Made by a program: the position numbers and the translations under genes. Shown here piece by piece: positions 22,518-27,946 of a DNA stretch of 40,380 nt (the first letter of the stretch is position 1; every line of letters begins with the position of its first letter). This DNA is from an uncultured Paraprevotella sp. (GTDB taxonomy: Bacteria; Bacteroidota; Bacteroidia; Bacteroidales; Bacteroidaceae): contig CALUNJ010000014.1 of assembly GCA_944321975.1 (NCBI GenBank), forward strand, positions 1-40,380, read 5' to 3'. The notes under the pieces are model-generated. The model did not search any database. It was not told where the DNA came from and was given only the letters and a program-made list of their open reading frames with translations.

Positions 22518-23291
22518 TCATTTTATGTTTTCCCGGATGCGGGTGAGATAGGCGTTGAGTGCCTCTTCGTCGCGTGCGTCGATGATATCGATGAGTCCTT
22601 TCAGTTCTTTCCGGATGCGTTCCACATGGCTTTTGGTGCGTGGGTTGAAGAGGATTTCACGCAGCAGGCAGTCGTCTTCGCTCAGTACGCCTTGTGCGAT
22701 TTTCAGGTGGCGTTTGAAGGTGGTGCCCGGCGCGTCCTGGTGCTTCATCACGGCGGCAAACACAAAGGTGGATACGAATGGGATGCTGAGGGAGTAGGCC
22801 ATGGTTTCGTCGTGTTCGTCGAAAGAATATTCGCACACGTGCAGTCCGAGGCGGGTGTACAAGTCGCGGAAGAAAATCCGCCCCATGTAGTCGCCTTCGT
22901 TGATGACGATGGCGTTTTCATGGCTCAGGCTGCCCAGGTTGGCAAATGTGGGGCCGAACATGGGATGAGTGCTGACGTAGCGCATGCCTGTGCTTTCGTA
23001 GAAGTCTTTGAATCCGGTCTTGACCGACGAGATGTCGCTCAGGATGCAGTCTTTCGGCAGAAGAGGGATTACCTGCCGAAACACATCCAACGTGTATTTC
23101 AGCGTGACGGCATTGATGACCAGTTCGGGACGGAACGTGCTGATTTCATCAGTCGAGGTGAATCGTTGCGTGTTGTACATGAAGCGCAAGCGTTTTGCGT
23201 CGATGTCATACACGGCCGTTTCATGTTCGAAACTCAGCAAGTCCACGAAGAAAGAACCCATTTTCCCGGCTCCGAGGATCAGTATTTTCAT
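22518..23291 (-). CDS. tyrA: Prephenate dehydrogenase
   Basis: The 257-aa NAD(P)-dependent enzyme converts prephenate to 4-hydroxyphenylpyruvate in tyrosine synthesis. It opens MKILILGAGKMGSFFVDLL (Rossmann GxGxxG) and has LSDISSVKTGF and VSTHPMFGPTF, the conserved HPMFGP active-site segment. There is no chorismate mutase or ACT domain; the mutase is fused to the DAHP synthase next door. It is the last gene of the operon, 21 nt after the DAHP synthase. Confidence 0.93.
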   Translation of the reverse strand: MKILILGAGKMGSFFVDLLSFEHETAVYDIDAKRLRFMYNTQRFTSTDEISTFRPELVINAVTLKYTLDVFRQVIPLLPKDCILSDISSVKTGFKDFYESTGMRYVSTHPMFGPTFANLGSLSHENAIVINEGDYMGRIFFRDLYTRLGLHVCEYSFDEHDETMAYSLSIPFVSTFVFAAVMKHQDAPGTTFKRHLKIAQGVLSEDDCLLREILFNPRTKSHVERIRKELKGLIDIIDARDEEALNAYLTRIRENIK

Positions 23292-23312: not shown

Positions 23313-24386
23313 TTATTTATTAATGAGTTCCATTTGCTGGCGTACGCTTTCTTCATGGATGGTCTCGAAGATTTTCCTTACGAAATCGGCATCCATGCCA
23401 CACAGCGAGCCTTGTGCGCCGCGTTTGTCGAGAATCTCGGAGTAGCGTCCGGTCTGTACGACGGCCATGTTGTGCTCTTTCTTGTAGGTGGCAATCTCGC
23501 GGCTGATGCGCATCCGGCGGGTCAACAGTTCCATGAGGTCGTTGTCCAGCGTGTCGATTTGTTTGCGCAGCGCGGAGAGGCTTTCGGTAGTTTCCACGTT
23601 TTCGCGGATCACCAGTCGGTCGAGGATGAAGTCGAGCACTTCGGGGAGCACCTGTTGTTTGGCGTCGCTCCATGCGCTGTCCGGGTTGCAGTGGCTTTCC
23701 ACGATGAGCCCGCGGAAGCCCATGTCCATGGCCTGTTGGCACAACGGGGCGATCAGGTCGCGGCGGCCGCCGATGTGGCTGGGGTCGCAGATGATGGGCA
23801 GTTCGGGATGGCGGCGGTGCAGTTCGATGGGGATGTGCCACATGGGGGCGTTGCGGTAGATCTTTTGGTCGATGCTGGAGAATCCCCGGTGTATGGCTCC
23901 AAGGCGCGTGATGCCTGCTCCGTTGATGCGCTCCAGCGCGCCAATCCACAGTTCAATGTCCGGGTTTACGGGATTTTTCACCAGGACGGGGATGTCCGCT
24001 CCTTTGAGCGAGTCGGCGATTTCCTGCATGGCAAAGGGGTTGGCGGTGGTGCGGGCGCCGATCCACAGCAAGTCAATGCCGGCGTTGAGGGCGGCTTCCA
24101 CGTGTTTGGGCATGGCCACCTCGGTGGCCGTGAGCATGCCTGTTTCCGCTTTCACCCGTTGCAGCCAGGGCAGGGCGGCTTCGCCCATGCCTTCGAATCC
24201 ACCGGGTTTGGTGCGGGGCTTCCACACGCCGGCGCGGAAGATTTTGCATCCCCGTCCGGCCAGCTGGCGGGCGGTGTTCATGACTTGTTCCTCGGTTTCG
24301 GCACTGCACGGGCCGGCGATGACGAGGGGTCGCTTGTTCTCATCTACTCCCGGAATGTTCAGGGGAGAAAGTCGTAAGTCGTCCAT
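23313..24386 (-). CDS. Bifunctional DAHP synthase / chorismate mutase
   Basis: The 357-aa fusion has an N-terminal type I-beta DAHP synthase (about 1-255: VIAGPCSAE, FRAGVWKPRTKPGGFEG, WIGARTTANP, the metal-binding ICDPSHIGGRR and ESHCNPDSAWSDAKQ) and a C-terminal AroQ chorismate mutase (about 265-350: LRKQIDTLDNDLMELLTRRM). It thus supplies both the first shikimate-pathway step and the branch-point step to prephenate. There is no separate regulatory domain, although the mutase part may confer feedback sensing as in other fusions. It starts 24 nt after the aminotransferase. Confidence 0.95.
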   Translation of the reverse strand: MDDLRLSPLNIPGVDENKRPLVIAGPCSAETEEQVMNTARQLAGRGCKIFRAGVWKPRTKPGGFEGMGEAALPWLQRVKAETGMLTATEVAMPKHVEAALNAGIDLLWIGARTTANPFAMQEIADSLKGADIPVLVKNPVNPDIELWIGALERINGAGITRLGAIHRGFSSIDQKIYRNAPMWHIPIELHRRHPELPIICDPSHIGGRRDLIAPLCQQAMDMGFRGLIVESHCNPDSAWSDAKQQVLPEVLDFILDRLVIRENVETTESLSALRKQIDTLDNDLMELLTRRMRISREIATYKKEHNMAVVQTGRYSEILDKRGAQGSLCGMDADFVRKIFETIHEESVRQQMELINK

Positions 24387-24410: not shown

Positions 24411-25601
24411 TCAGATTTTGAATGTGGCGCGGATGCGCTCCAGCGCTTCGGCCAGTTTTTCTTTTTTTGCACAAAGTGAAAGGCGGATGTAGCGTTCGCC
24501 GTTGCTGCCGAAAATGAATCCGGGGGTGATGAACACGCGGGCTTCATGGAGCACTTTCTCTGTCAGGTCTTCCACCTTCTTGTAATGGTCGGGAATGCGC
24601 CCCCACAGGAACATGCCCACTTGTGCGGGGTCGAATGTGCATCCCAGGGCGGTCATGATTTGTTCGGCCAGTGTGCGCCGTTCGGCATATATGCGGACGT
24701 TGGCTTCTTCGTGCCATTGGTCGTCGTTTCCGTATGCGGCGGCGGCGGCTAATTGCACAGGACGGAATGTGCCCGAGTCGATGTTGCTTTTCACCTTCAA
24801 GATCCATTTCACAAATTCGGCGTTGGTCGCCAGCATGGCCACGCGCCAACCGGGCATGTTGTGGCTTTTGCTCATGGAGTTGAATTCGATGCAGCAACGT
24901 TTTGCGCCGGGTACTTGAAGGATGCTCAGGCGGTCGTGGTTGAGAATGAAGCTATACGGGTTGTCGTTCACCACCACGAGGTTGTGGCGCATGGCGAAGT
25001 CCACGAGTCTTTCATAGGTCTCTTTTTGCGCGTTGGCTCCTGTGGGCATGTTGGGGTAATTGCTCCACAGGATTTTCACGCCGGTGAGATCCATTCGTTC
25101 CAAGGCTTCGAAATCGGGCTGCCAGCCGTTTTCCGGGAGCAGGTCGTAGTAGGCAATCTGTTCCCCGAGCAGTTTGCTGAGCGAAGTGTAAGTGGGATAG
25201 CCGGGGTTGGGCACCAGTACCCGGTCGCCGGGATTGGCCAAGGCGAGTGTGACGTGCAGGATGCCTTCTTTCGATCCGATCAGCGGCTGGATTTCACTTT
25301 CCGGATCCAGGTCCACGTCATACCATCGTTTGTAGAATGCCGCCATGGCGCGGCGCAGCTCCGGGATGCCCACAGTGGGTTGGTAGCCGTGGGCGTCGGG
25401 TTTCCGTGCTTCTGCGCACAGGGTCTCGATGGTTTTTGGCGAGGGTGGCATGTCCGGGCTTCCGATGGCCAGGCTGATGATGTCTTTCCCTTCCGCGTTC
25501 ATGCGGGCCACTTCCTTGAGTTTCACCGAGAAATAATATTCTTTCACGGCATCCAGCCGGTCGGCTGGTTTTATGTTCGGGTTAAATAGTCTGTTTTCCA
25601 T
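24411..25601 (-). CDS. Class I pyridoxal-phosphate aminotransferase (aromatic/aspartate type)
   Basis: The 396-aa fold-type I aminotransferase has GSPDMPPSP near the N-terminus, GSKEGILHV, NPGYPTY, SNYPNMPTGA, NDNPYSF and the PLP lysine in SMSKSHNMPGWR, with the substrate-carboxylate Arg in RYIRLSLC. Its place between pheA and the DAHP synthase suggests that it converts phenylpyruvate and 4-hydroxyphenylpyruvate to Phe and Tyr. LL-diaminopimelate or aspartate activity cannot be excluded by sequence. Its start codon lies 20 nt inside the 3' end of pheA, which suggests translational coupling. Confidence 0.9.
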   Translation of the reverse strand: MENRLFNPNIKPADRLDAVKEYYFSVKLKEVARMNAEGKDIISLAIGSPDMPPSPKTIETLCAEARKPDAHGYQPTVGIPELRRAMAAFYKRWYDVDLDPESEIQPLIGSKEGILHVTLALANPGDRVLVPNPGYPTYTSLSKLLGEQIAYYDLLPENGWQPDFEALERMDLTGVKILWSNYPNMPTGANAQKETYERLVDFAMRHNLVVVNDNPYSFILNHDRLSILQVPGAKRCCIEFNSMSKSHNMPGWRVAMLATNAEFVKWILKVKSNIDSGTFRPVQLAAAAAYGNDDQWHEEANVRIYAERRTLAEQIMTALGCTFDPAQVGMFLWGRIPDHYKKVEDLTEKVLHEARVFITPGFIFGSNGERYIRLSLCAKKEKLAEALERIRATFKI

Positions 25602-26424
25602 CTTGGTATTCTCCTAATATTTTTAGTTCTTTGGTGAGAGGGGTGATTGCATCGATGCTTTGGGAATAGCGGGTGTAGTCGTCGAAAGCCAGGTCCACAT
25701 AGAACATGTACTGCCATTCCTTGCCGACAAACGGGAGGGATTGGATTTTGGTCAGGTTCAATTTGTAGAAGGAGAGGATCGACAAGACTTGGGACAGCGC
25801 GCCTTGTTCGTGTGGCAGGGTGAAGACCAGGCTTGCCTTGTTGGTCTGCCGGATGTCGCGCAGCAGGTTGGCGCGCTGGGGTTGGCAGAACACCAGGAAA
25901 CGCGTGAAGTTGTGTTTGTTGGTCTCAATGCCTTCTTCCAGCACTTTCATGCCGTAGAGCGGGGCGGCGAACTTGGAGCAGATTGCCGCGTGGCCGTGCA
26001 GTTGTCCGCGGCTGATGGCCTCGGCGGCTCCGGCCGTGTCTTCAACTTCCACTACTTTTAAGCCAGGGTGGTGGCCCAGGAAGTCCCGGCATTGCATGAG
26101 TGCCACGGGGTGTGAGTTGACTTCCTTGAGGTCTTCCCAGTTGTCGTCGGGGAGGCAAAGCAGGCTGTGTGAAATGCGCAGTTTGTGCTCTCCCACGATG
26201 GTCAGTCCGCTGTTGCGCAGCAGCTCGTAGTTGTGCAACAGGCTGCCGGCAATCGTGTTTTCGATGGCCGCCATGCCGATGACGGTGCTGTCGTTCTTCA
26301 CCGTGTCGAATACTTCTTCAAACGTGGCGCAACAGATCAGCTCGATGTCTTCGTTTTCGAAGTGGTAGTGGGCGGCCATGTCGTGGTATGACCCCTTGAT
26401 GCCTTGGATTGCAATTCGTTTCAT
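25582..26424 (-). CDS. pheA: Prephenate dehydratase with ACT domain
   Basis: The 280-aa enzyme converts prephenate to phenylpyruvate. The N-terminal PDT domain (1-180) has IQGIKGSYHDMAA, the AAIENTIAGSL segment and HNFTRFLVF with the catalytic Thr-Arg-Phe. The C-terminal ACT domain (about 200-275, KASLVFTLPHEQGALSQVL, LTKIQSLPF) is the usual Phe feedback site. There is no fused chorismate mutase. The ATG at 26424 is used because the frame upstream runs through the attenuator terminator. It is the first structural gene after the leader peptide. Confidence 0.95.
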   Translation of the reverse strand: MKRIAIQGIKGSYHDMAAHYHFENEDIELICCATFEEVFDTVKNDSTVIGMAAIENTIAGSLLHNYELLRNSGLTIVGEHKLRISHSLLCLPDDNWEDLKEVNSHPVALMQCRDFLGHHPGLKVVEVEDTAGAAEAISRGQLHGHAAICSKFAAPLYGMKVLEEGIETNKHNFTRFLVFCQPQRANLLRDIRQTNKASLVFTLPHEQGALSQVLSILSFYKLNLTKIQSLPFVGKEWQYMFYVDLAFDDYTRYSQSIDAITPLTKELKILGEYQDGKQTI

Positions 26425-26448: not shown

Positions 26449-26484
26449 AAAAAAGTCCCGCTTCGGCAGGAAGCGGGACTTTTT
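26449..26484 (-). terminator. Attenuator terminator of the Phe/Tyr operon
   Basis: On the minus strand GTCCCGCTTC (26479-26470) pairs with GAAGCGGGAC (26464-26455) around CTGCC, flanked by AAAAA before and TTTTTT after (26454-26449). It lies between the leader peptide and pheA, 25 nt before the pheA ATG, so it must be read through for expression. Confidence 0.9.
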
Positions 26485-26540
26485 CGTTTTATGTTTTTTA
26501 ATATGGTTTCCGGTTTGATACACACACGAGTTCCCGCTTC
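26470..26540 (-). promoter_or_regulatory. Antiterminator of the Phe/Tyr attenuator
   Basis: GAAGCGGGA inside the leader gene (26540-26532, codons 21-25) is identical to the 3' arm of the terminator, so it can pair with the terminator's 5' arm (26478-26470) and prevent the terminator. Ribosomes stalled on the aromatic codons just upstream leave this segment free. Ribosomes reaching the leader stop codon at 26498 cover it and let the terminator form. Confidence 0.8.
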
Positions 26541-26602
26541 ACTTTGTGGCTAAAGTAAAAGTAAAAGAAGAAATAAAAGTATGTGTTCATCAATTCTTTC
26601 AT
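26498..26602 (-). CDS. pheL: Phe/Tyr leader peptide of the attenuator
   Basis: This 34-codon open frame reads MKELMNT, then ten consecutive aromatic codons YFYFFFYFYF (6 Phe, 4 Tyr), then SHKVKRELVCVSNRKPY and TAA. A second ATG at codon 5 is possible. The frame sits about 25 nt after a TAAATTTG box and is followed by the antiterminator and terminator elements that make a classical attenuator. The peptide probably has no function beyond being translated. The symbol follows E. coli usage for the analogous leader, not homology. Confidence 0.85.
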   Translation of the reverse strand: MKELMNTYFYFFFYFYFSHKVKRELVCVSNRKPY

Positions 26603-26625
26603 TCTGCTATCTTTTGAATACGTGG

Positions 26626-26633
26626 CAAATTTA
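26626..26633 (-). promoter_or_regulatory. Probable promoter -7 box of the Phe/Tyr operon
   Basis: The minus strand reads TAAATTTG, matching TAnnTTTG, 23 nt before the leader ATG. The -33 region is A-rich without a clear TTTG. Confidence 0.6.
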
Positions 26634-26821
26634 GGCATTTTTTTTTGTTTCGAACCTTTTTCGGGCATTTTTTTTCGATTTCAACGGCATTTTGTGCCAA
26701 AATACCTGGTTTGAGTGATACGGGGTGATGACGTGGAGAGGAGATGGGCGGGCGATGTCTGGATAAAACAGCCGATTTGTTTCCGCCTTAACTTTATTCT
26801 TCGTAACTTTCGGCGGAAAAA

Positions 26822-26860: not shown

Positions 26861-27946
26861 ATGAAGAAGAATGTTTTGATTTGGATGGCCATGGCGGCGG
26901 GGGCGTTTTTCCCTTGCCGCGCAGAGGCTTGTACTGGCATTACGCTGAAGGCGGCCGACGGTGCCGTCGTGTTGGCACGCACCATCGAGTGGGGCGGGAG
27001 CGATCTGGACAGCCGTTATGTGGTGGTGCCGAGAGGTTATGAGCAGCAGGCTTATGTGACGGGCGGGGAAAAGGCCGGAATGAAGTTTGTGGCGCGTTAT
27101 GGCTACGTGGGGGTGGCGGTGGAGATGGAGGATTTCGTGGCCGAGGGGCTGAACGAGGCCGGGTTGTCTGCCGGCTTGTTTTATTTTCCCGGTTATGGGG
27201 GCTACGAGGCCTATGACCCGGAGAAACGCGAAACGTCTGTTTCCGATTTGCAGCTCGTGGCATGGATGCTGGCGGGTTTCAAGACCGTGGACGAGGTGGA
27301 AAAAGCCTTTTCGGGAATACACGTGGTGTCGTCCGATCCGCGTGCCTCCACGGCCCATTGGCGCATTGCCGACGCAACGGGGCGCCAGGTGGTGCTGGAA
27401 ATAGTGGATGGCAAGCCTTGTTTTTACGAGAACCCCTTGGGGGTGCTGACCAATTCCCCGGGGTTTGAGTGGCAGATGACGAACTTGAACAACTACGTGA
27501 ACCTTTATTCCGGAGGGGCGGACCGTAAGCGGCTGGGCGGGGCGGTGCTTTCACCCTTTGGGGCAGGCAGTGGCTTTTTGGGCCTTCCCGGCGACGTGAC
27601 TCCGCCTTCCCGCTTCGTGCGCGCGGCCTTTTTCCAGGCTTCTTCTCCCTTGCAGGCCACGGCACACAAAGCCGTGCTCCAGGCTTTCCAGATCCTGAAT
27701 AATTTCGATATTCCGGTGGGCATTGAGTTCCCCGACGGGAAGGTGCCGGCCGATATTCCGAGTGCCACGCAATGGACTTCGGCAACGGATGTCCGCAACC
27801 TGGTGTTTTATTATCGGACGATGTGGAACAGCGCGATACGAAGCATAGATCTGAAAACCATAGATTTTTCGCGCGTCAGTTACCGTTCGGCTCCGGTGGA
27901 CGAGGTAAAATCGCAGCCAATTGTGCCCATAGAGTTGAAGGAGTGA
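26861..27946 (+). CDS. Choloylglycine hydrolase family protein (bile salt hydrolase/penicillin V acylase type)
   Basis: The 361-aa Ntn-type amidase has a signal peptide (MKKNVLIWMAMAAGAFFPCRAEA) ending immediately before Cys24. Signal peptidase would therefore expose the nucleophile as residue 1 of the mature protein (CTGITL). Counting that Cys as 1, the next catalytic residues are Arg17 and, in place of the usual Asp20, Glu20 (ARTIEWGG). LNEAGLSAGLFYF and LTNSPGFEWQMTNLNNYVNL carry the Asn residues, and PSRFVRAAFF the late Arg. Location is periplasmic or surface. The substrate (bile salts, N-acyl amides or beta-lactams) cannot be told from sequence. It is divergent from the Phe/Tyr operon. 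Confidence 0.88.
   Translation: MKKNVLIWMAMAAGAFFPCRAEACTGITLKAADGAVVLARTIEWGGSDLDSRYVVVPRGYEQQAYVTGGEKAGMKFVARYGYVGVAVEMEDFVAEGLNEAGLSAGLFYFPGYGGYEAYDPEKRETSVSDLQLVAWMLAGFKTVDEVEKAFSGIHVVSSDPRASTAHWRIADATGRQVVLEIVDGKPCFYENPLGVLTNSPGFEWQMTNLNNYVNLYSGGADRKRLGGAVLSPFGAGSGFLGLPGDVTPPSRFVRAAFFQASSPLQATAHKAVLQAFQILNNFDIPVGIEFPDGKVPADIPSATQWTSATDVRNLVFYYRTMWNSAIRSIDLKTIDFSRVSYRSAPVDEVKSQPIVPIELKE

Follow-up and report, generated by a model that had tools for sequence, protein, structure and literature searches.

A probable ribosome-mediated attenuator sensing Phe and Tyr upstream of the pheA operon in Paraprevotella and other Bacteroidia

We propose that the region upstream of pheA in the window (the whole 40,380-nt stretch of DNA that was analyzed) is, very probably, a transcription attenuator in which a translating ribosome senses charged tRNA-Phe and tRNA-Tyr, serving an operon composed of pheA, an aminotransferase gene, a fused DAHP synthase/chorismate mutase gene (DAHPS/CM) and tyrA. 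The parts of the attenuator are present in the window and conserved among relatives, where the pairing arms co-vary and their spacing from the leader codons is maintained. From these features, we infer ribosome stalling, termination, their timing and the amino acids that are sensed.

Operon, leader and terminator in the window

The window was assigned to Paraprevotella (class Bacteroidia, order Bacteroidales) by its PheA matches, which showed 96% identity to an uncultured Paraprevotella MAG and 90% identity to P. clara and P. xylaniphila. One same-genus genome (G011), rated 99% complete, had no PheA match and is a possible Phe auxotroph.

All four operon genes lie on the minus strand, and adjacent genes either share 20 nt or are separated by 21–24 nt. 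The controlled gene, pheA (25582–26424), encodes prephenate dehydratase (PF00800, 4.9e-55); a domain search did not find a chorismate mutase domain in its product. It is accompanied by a class I/II aminotransferase (24411–25601; PF00155, 1e-59), DAHP synthase fused to chorismate mutase (23313–24386; PF00793, 5.4e-40; PF01817, 2.3e-24) and tyrA, encoding prephenate dehydrogenase (22518–23291; PF02153, 5.7e-09; NF006409, 2.3e-17, below the curated cut-off). A divergent gene of the choloylglycine hydrolase family (CBAH, PF02275, by domain match) starts at ATG 26861 (26861–27946, plus strand) and shares the intergenic region with the pheA leader. As counted by tblastn at 1e-8, which may miss a divergent tyrA, and with contig ends disregarded, the order pheA, aminotransferase, DAHPS/CM and tyrA was intact in 72/80 named loci (selected as the best 80 of 551) and in 6/13 order loci, pheA being alone in three of the 13. 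All four genes were present in 0/7 class loci and the first three in 5/7.

A leader ORF of 34 codons, from ATG to TAA, occupies 26498–26602 on the minus strand; its translation is MKELMNTYFYFFFYFYFSHKVKRELVCVSNRKPY. Codons 8–17 (26581–26552) form an uninterrupted run of ten Phe/Tyr codons, YFYFFFYFYF, which may have an additional role as arm 1 by pairing with arm 2. The leader ATG at 26602 aligns with the leader starts of relatives (MRELFNTYFYF...). A second in-frame ATG, located upstream at 26668, appears to precede the likely transcript start. The pattern TAnnTTTG is given as the -7 motif of Bacteroidota in PMC9723704, and a candidate box of this kind, TAAATTTG, was seen in the sequence at 26633–26626 (minus strand); transcription would therefore probably start near 26620. 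Tracts resembling (TWY)8 are rare, though not unheard of, in the genome assembly (86% complete): the pattern matched only the leader run, at three overlapping places, and the same pattern reversed as a control matched four places.

The leader is followed by a hairpin of 15 pairs with a 5-nt loop (26484–26450, -23.1 kcal/mol), which together with its U tract (26484–26449) stops 24 nt short of the pheA ATG (26424). Folding assigns the terminator 5′ arm, common to terminator and antiterminator, to arm 3 (26470–26484, minus strand), and the 3′ arm of the intrinsic terminator with its U tract to arm 4 (26449–26464, minus strand). A hairpin scan listed the 15-pair stem under the plus strand; for the minus strand it gave only a 6-pair core and the T tract behind it, since the full stem draws this tract into its own base pairs. 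As the upstream neighbor is divergent, the hairpin does not belong to the 3′ end of a preceding minus-strand gene. Arm 2, the 5′ arm of the antiterminator, lies inside the leader ORF (26532–26540, minus strand) and has the sequence GAAGCGGGA, the same as a 9-nt piece of the terminator 3′ arm. The duplex of the arm 2 region with arm 3 was calculated at -19.0 kcal/mol, and a 1:2 hairpin between the run and arm 2 was predicted in the free fold of the window. The region 26640–26440 as a whole had a folding z of -3.8, and 0/200 shuffles were equally stable.

These results agree with the preliminary description of this DNA in most respects. The leader with its ten aromatic codons in series and the strong terminator at 26449–26484 were both recovered, and the domain matches bear out the pairing of a mixed Phe and Tyr run with an operon that makes both amino acids, which the run fits. 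The nine-base repeat of the terminator 3′ arm was likewise present at 26540–26532, but its placement within codons 21–25 had to be corrected: it begins at the third base of codon 21 and ends at the second of codon 24, short of codon 25.

Conservation among relatives

We collected the pheA upstreams of 34 genus and family loci, 80 named loci (the best 80 of 551) and 100 order, class and family genomes. Row L135, which had no upstream sequence, was left out, and removal of 20 duplicates reduced 213 rows to 193 unique upstreams. Genomes with a PheA match were hand-picked before their upstreams were seen, namely 60 of 105 in the order, 19 of 54 in the class and 20 of 158 elsewhere in the phylum; the 138 of 247 order genomes without a match to the query PheA are uninformative on the leader. 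A leader was defined as an ORF of 6–60 codons with at least 7 Phe/Tyr in 10 codons.

The preliminary description had proposed a comparison with relatives, both for aromatic runs before pheA and for changes in arm pairing. The runs proved to be conserved: an aromatic short ORF preceded pheA in 179/193 unique upstreams, compared with 4/193 on the antisense strand and 1/579 dinucleotide shuffles. By set, the leader was found in 1/1 genus, 73/79 named, 33/34 family, 54/59 order and 18/20 class rows, the last set consisting of 19 rows and L188, which belongs to another class of the phylum. Carriers include Phocaeicola vulgatus ATCC 8482 (L087), P. massiliensis, P. barnesiae and P. faecalis, as well as Bacteroides caecigallinarum, Paraprevotella clara and P. 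xylaniphila. Between the run and pheA, 178 of the 179 leader rows had a T-tract hairpin, and a terminator hairpin of -8 kcal/mol or better was present in 176/179 versus 19/179 shuffled sequences (one shuffle each). The pairing counts given below comprise 176 rows and retain L074 and L077, in which the hairpin was miscalled inside the leader.

Of 173 relatives (the 176 rows minus three without an in-frame ATG), 154 had TAnnTTTG in the 80 nt preceding the leader ATG, compared with a mean of 7.75 after shuffling, and the boxes were mostly 27–37 nt from the ATG. The first 13 codons of the 176 rows, which had been picked for F/Y richness, contained 875 Phe, 721 Tyr and 6 Leu residues. A Trp codon was found in the run region of 27/176 rows and was commoner than Leu (6), Ile (9) or Val (7); examples of Trp inside the Phe/Tyr run are L052, L054, L055, L059, L150 and L176. 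This is a hint that the leader is possibly a three-amino-acid sensor in some lineages.

The remaining 14 of 193 upstreams fell below the leader criterion. Four of them (L076, L093, L162 and L184, each with a count of 6) were leader-like with Trp or other residues in the run, and one (L152, count 6) was doubtful as a leader. L046 was a misplacement at a contig end. An aromatic leader was not visible before pheA in the other eight (L068, L079, L106, L128, L137, L174, L191 and L213), in which the switch was possibly lost or the gene neighborhood changed; L137 comes from a genome of 1.2 Mb.

Outside the class, the leader was found in L188 and also in L220 and L221 (2/19 further upstreams, versus 1/19, L238, in the antisense control). 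PheA identity to the query was 45% for L188, 44% for L220 and 40% for L221; among the 17 outside-class upstreams without a leader, it was 40% in one and 35–39% in 16. These sequence comparisons suggest that the leader and operon may have moved together, possibly by transfer.

Position of the ribosome relative to arm 2

A ribosome with a codon in its A site covers approximately 12–13 nt beyond the first base of that codon. Among the relatives, the median distance between the start of the last aromatic codon and the first pairing base of arm 2 was 15 nt (IQR 13–15; central 80% 11–16; 168/176 rows), and the spacing in the window was 14. Therefore, a ribosome starved anywhere in the run would just leave arm 2 free. 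The stop codon was located at a median of 7 nt past the 3′ end of arm 2 (10th–90th percentile, -12 to 22), indicating that in many species the terminating ribosome would be on or beside arm 2. In the window, the leader stop codon is 29 nt past arm 2, and the arm would be hidden only during ribosome passage.

We folded transcripts with a masked ribosome, whose footprint was set at 18 nt on the upstream side and 12 nt on the downstream side, counted from the start of the A-site codon. For transcripts ending just after arm 3, 2:3 pairing was predicted with the ribosome at codon 8 or 17 and was not predicted at codon 26; with the ribosome at the stop codon of the window leader, arm 2 was free and 2:3 was predicted again. 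The spacing and the masked folding are thus, as computed, consistent with the earlier proposal that a stall on the Phe/Tyr run frees arm 2. The companion statement, that full translation covers the arm, held while the ribosome passes (codon 26) but not at the leader's own stop, where the arm is 29 nt behind and predicted to be free. In the full transcript, the terminator was the predicted fold at all four ribosome positions and without a ribosome; the switch must therefore be decided during transcription, while arms 3 and 4 emerge.

The role of arm 1 was less clear-cut. Segments from the run to arm 2 had a folding z below -2 in 118/168 rows (mean z -2.6), a measure that would be much the same for specific 1:2 pairing and for a pyrimidine tract with a purine tract behind it. 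Arm 1:arm 2 duplexes were better than those with a shuffled arm 2 in 97/168 rows, a neutral result. The correlation expected between a distant stop codon and a stronger 1:2 hairpin was absent (Spearman -0.005).

We propose the following sequence of events. RNA polymerase would initiate near 26620, and a ribosome would trail it on the leader ORF. When Phe or Tyr is short, the ribosome would stall within codons 8–17, and arm 2, just past its front edge, would stay free to bind arm 3 once this is made; 2:3 pairing would block the terminator, and the operon would be transcribed. When Phe and Tyr are plentiful, the ribosome would be moving across arm 2 during synthesis of arms 3 and 4; the 3:4 terminator would form, and transcription would stop near 26449.

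Arms 2, 3 and 4 alone could in principle be switched by a binder, such that a protein, a tRNA (T-box) or a ligand (riboswitch) would control pheA through the hairpin and independently of a ribosome on the leader. We consider this highly improbable, since a ribosome, unlike a binder, accounts for the aromatic codons and for the constant distance between them and arm 2, and an Rfam search found no family at cut-off in the window and, in the sources of 20 relatives, no leader family but only three tRNA genes.

Co-variation of the antiterminator and terminator arms

In the 176 rows, the best duplex between the leader stretch from the run start onward and the terminator 5′ arm had a median of -14.75 kcal/mol compared with -7.25 kcal/mol for shuffled sequences, and arm 2:arm 3 pairing beat the mean of ten shuffles in 175/176. 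The leader stretch had at least 7 nt in common with arm 4 in 62/176 rows versus 6/176 when shuffled. We then compared the pairing of each leader with its own terminator and with terminators permuted between species. Own pairing was stronger in all 176 rows taken together (-14.90 vs -11.26), in the 71 order and class rows (-13.91 vs -9.11), in the 68 of these with distinct arms (-13.97 vs -9.16) and in 52 rows with distinct arms lacking the common CCCGC (-13.75 vs -8.80), and 0/5000 permutations reached the own value in each case. Related rows are not independent events, and the permutation leaves some shared ancestry in these comparisons; the shuffles address composition.

As a free search for arm 2 could favor own pairs, we repeated the test with arm 2 defined by position only, as the stretch 9–30 nt past the start of the last aromatic codon, which was possible in 174/176 rows. 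Own pairing was again stronger, in the 174 rows (-14.51 vs -10.84), in the order and class rows (-12.61 vs -8.05) and in 54 rows without CCCGC (-12.34 vs -7.64), with 0/5000 permutations reaching it in each set. At least 7 contiguous pairs were formed in 54/71 order and class rows, compared with 31% of the pairs after swapping. In these 71 rows, the paired stretches of at least 6 comprised 57 different strings, some of them overlapping variants. As expected for arms that are nearly the same, swapping terminators cost little within the close sets (named, -15.49 vs -13.86; family, -15.72 vs -14.21). The antiterminator and terminator arms vary together between species. In L084, L145 and L212, which are from three different genomes, an A in arm 2 stands opposite a T in arm 3 with G retained in arm 4, giving a Watson-Crick pair in the antiterminator and a G-U wobble in the terminator.

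The leader peptide is recognizably conserved among relatives, as it would be if the ORF encoded a functional aromatic-rich small protein and the hairpin were an unrelated terminator or the end of an sRNA. However, far relatives keep mainly the aromatic run, and the ends and length of the peptide vary from 16 (L177) to 34 residues (window). Moreover, the KVKRE part, common near the window, overlies arm-2 bases, which in distant species co-vary with the terminator; a small protein with an unrelated hairpin is thus extremely improbable. The least credible explanation, an accidental meeting of a U-rich tract and a terminator, may call on the ease with which pyrimidine-rich tracts yield Phe codons and on the matches of the reversed (TWY)8, but its probability is negligible given the antisense, shuffle and permutation controls on the leader, terminator and arm pairing and the scarcity of Leu, whose TTR codons differ from Phe TTY at the third base only.

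Relation to known systems

The proteobacterial pheA/pheL system has a short aromatic leader peptide and alternative antiterminator and terminator structures upstream of pheA. The ribosome-mediated attenuator proposed here has the same general design as that system (RF01859, Phe_leader), but with 20.9 bits in the window against a cut-off of 55 it falls outside the family. It also differs in that the run mixes Tyr with Phe, the operon makes Tyr as well, pheA is devoid of a chorismate mutase domain and the promoter carries a Bacteroidota-type box. The best sub-threshold match on the minus strand was Thr_leader (RF00506; E 0.00062, 31.3 bits against a cut-off of 55), which at 26525–26447 spans the terminator but leaves out both the aromatic run and arm 2. 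We rejected all 16 sub-threshold Rfam matches, which were below their cut-offs; 15 of the 16 overlap the terminator, and several are of unrelated organisms. As no leader family reached its cut-off, the attenuator is a candidate new Rfam family.

In PMC9723704 (2021), strong clues of leader-peptide attenuation before amino-acid biosynthesis operons are reported for F. psychrophilum, together with a structured pheA 5′ element in this species and other Flavobacteriaceae that had no Rfam matches. That element precedes the same gene in the same phylum as ours, and the two are likely the same. Similarly, PMC7366714 describes long 5′ UTRs in B. thetaiotaomicron with sORFs reminiscent of leader peptides, for example at BT_4401; this is the same order and the same idea of leader-peptide attenuation. 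We found no description of a pheA attenuator in Bacteroidales in the open-licence literature, which is not proof of absence, and nothing on BTnc060 in the same literature. A comparative study of attenuation by Lopatovskaya et al. (2010; PubMed 20198868), cited in PMC4833913, may contain this attenuator. The kind of system is classical, and leader-peptide attenuation with a conserved pheA 5′ element was suggested earlier in Flavobacteriaceae; on sequence evidence, the window attenuator appears to be a new, well-supported example of this known kind.

We also looked for other attenuators in the same genome. Five consecutive CAY codons occurred in two places, both of which lay, by eye, inside a longer coding sequence in another frame. 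A search with three TGG codons was discarded as too unspecific, with 118 places (71 and 47 on the two strands).

Discussion

Taken across the sampled genomes, the data lean toward one homologous attenuator throughout the class Bacteroidia, with arm 2 near the front edge of the ribosome, and some lineages may also read Trp. Such reading of Trp, if real, would match the shared DAHP synthase.

Leader-peptide attenuation requires that the ribosome keep pace with RNA polymerase. Because the switch was kept in most of the sampled class genomes with co-varying arms and near-fixed spacing, such pacing is implied. The mRNAs of this phylum are not known to carry Shine-Dalgarno sequences; PMC9723704 states that those of F. 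psychrophilum lack them. We found no paper titles on transcription-translation coupling in this phylum in the open-licence literature. If such a class-wide attenuator is real, it would provide sequence-level evidence of close transcription-translation coupling in bacteria whose mRNAs are without Shine-Dalgarno sequences, and it would be a ready reporter for testing ribosome-polymerase pacing. The attenuator also suggests how gut genera, Phocaeicola and Paraprevotella among them, may control Phe/Tyr synthesis.
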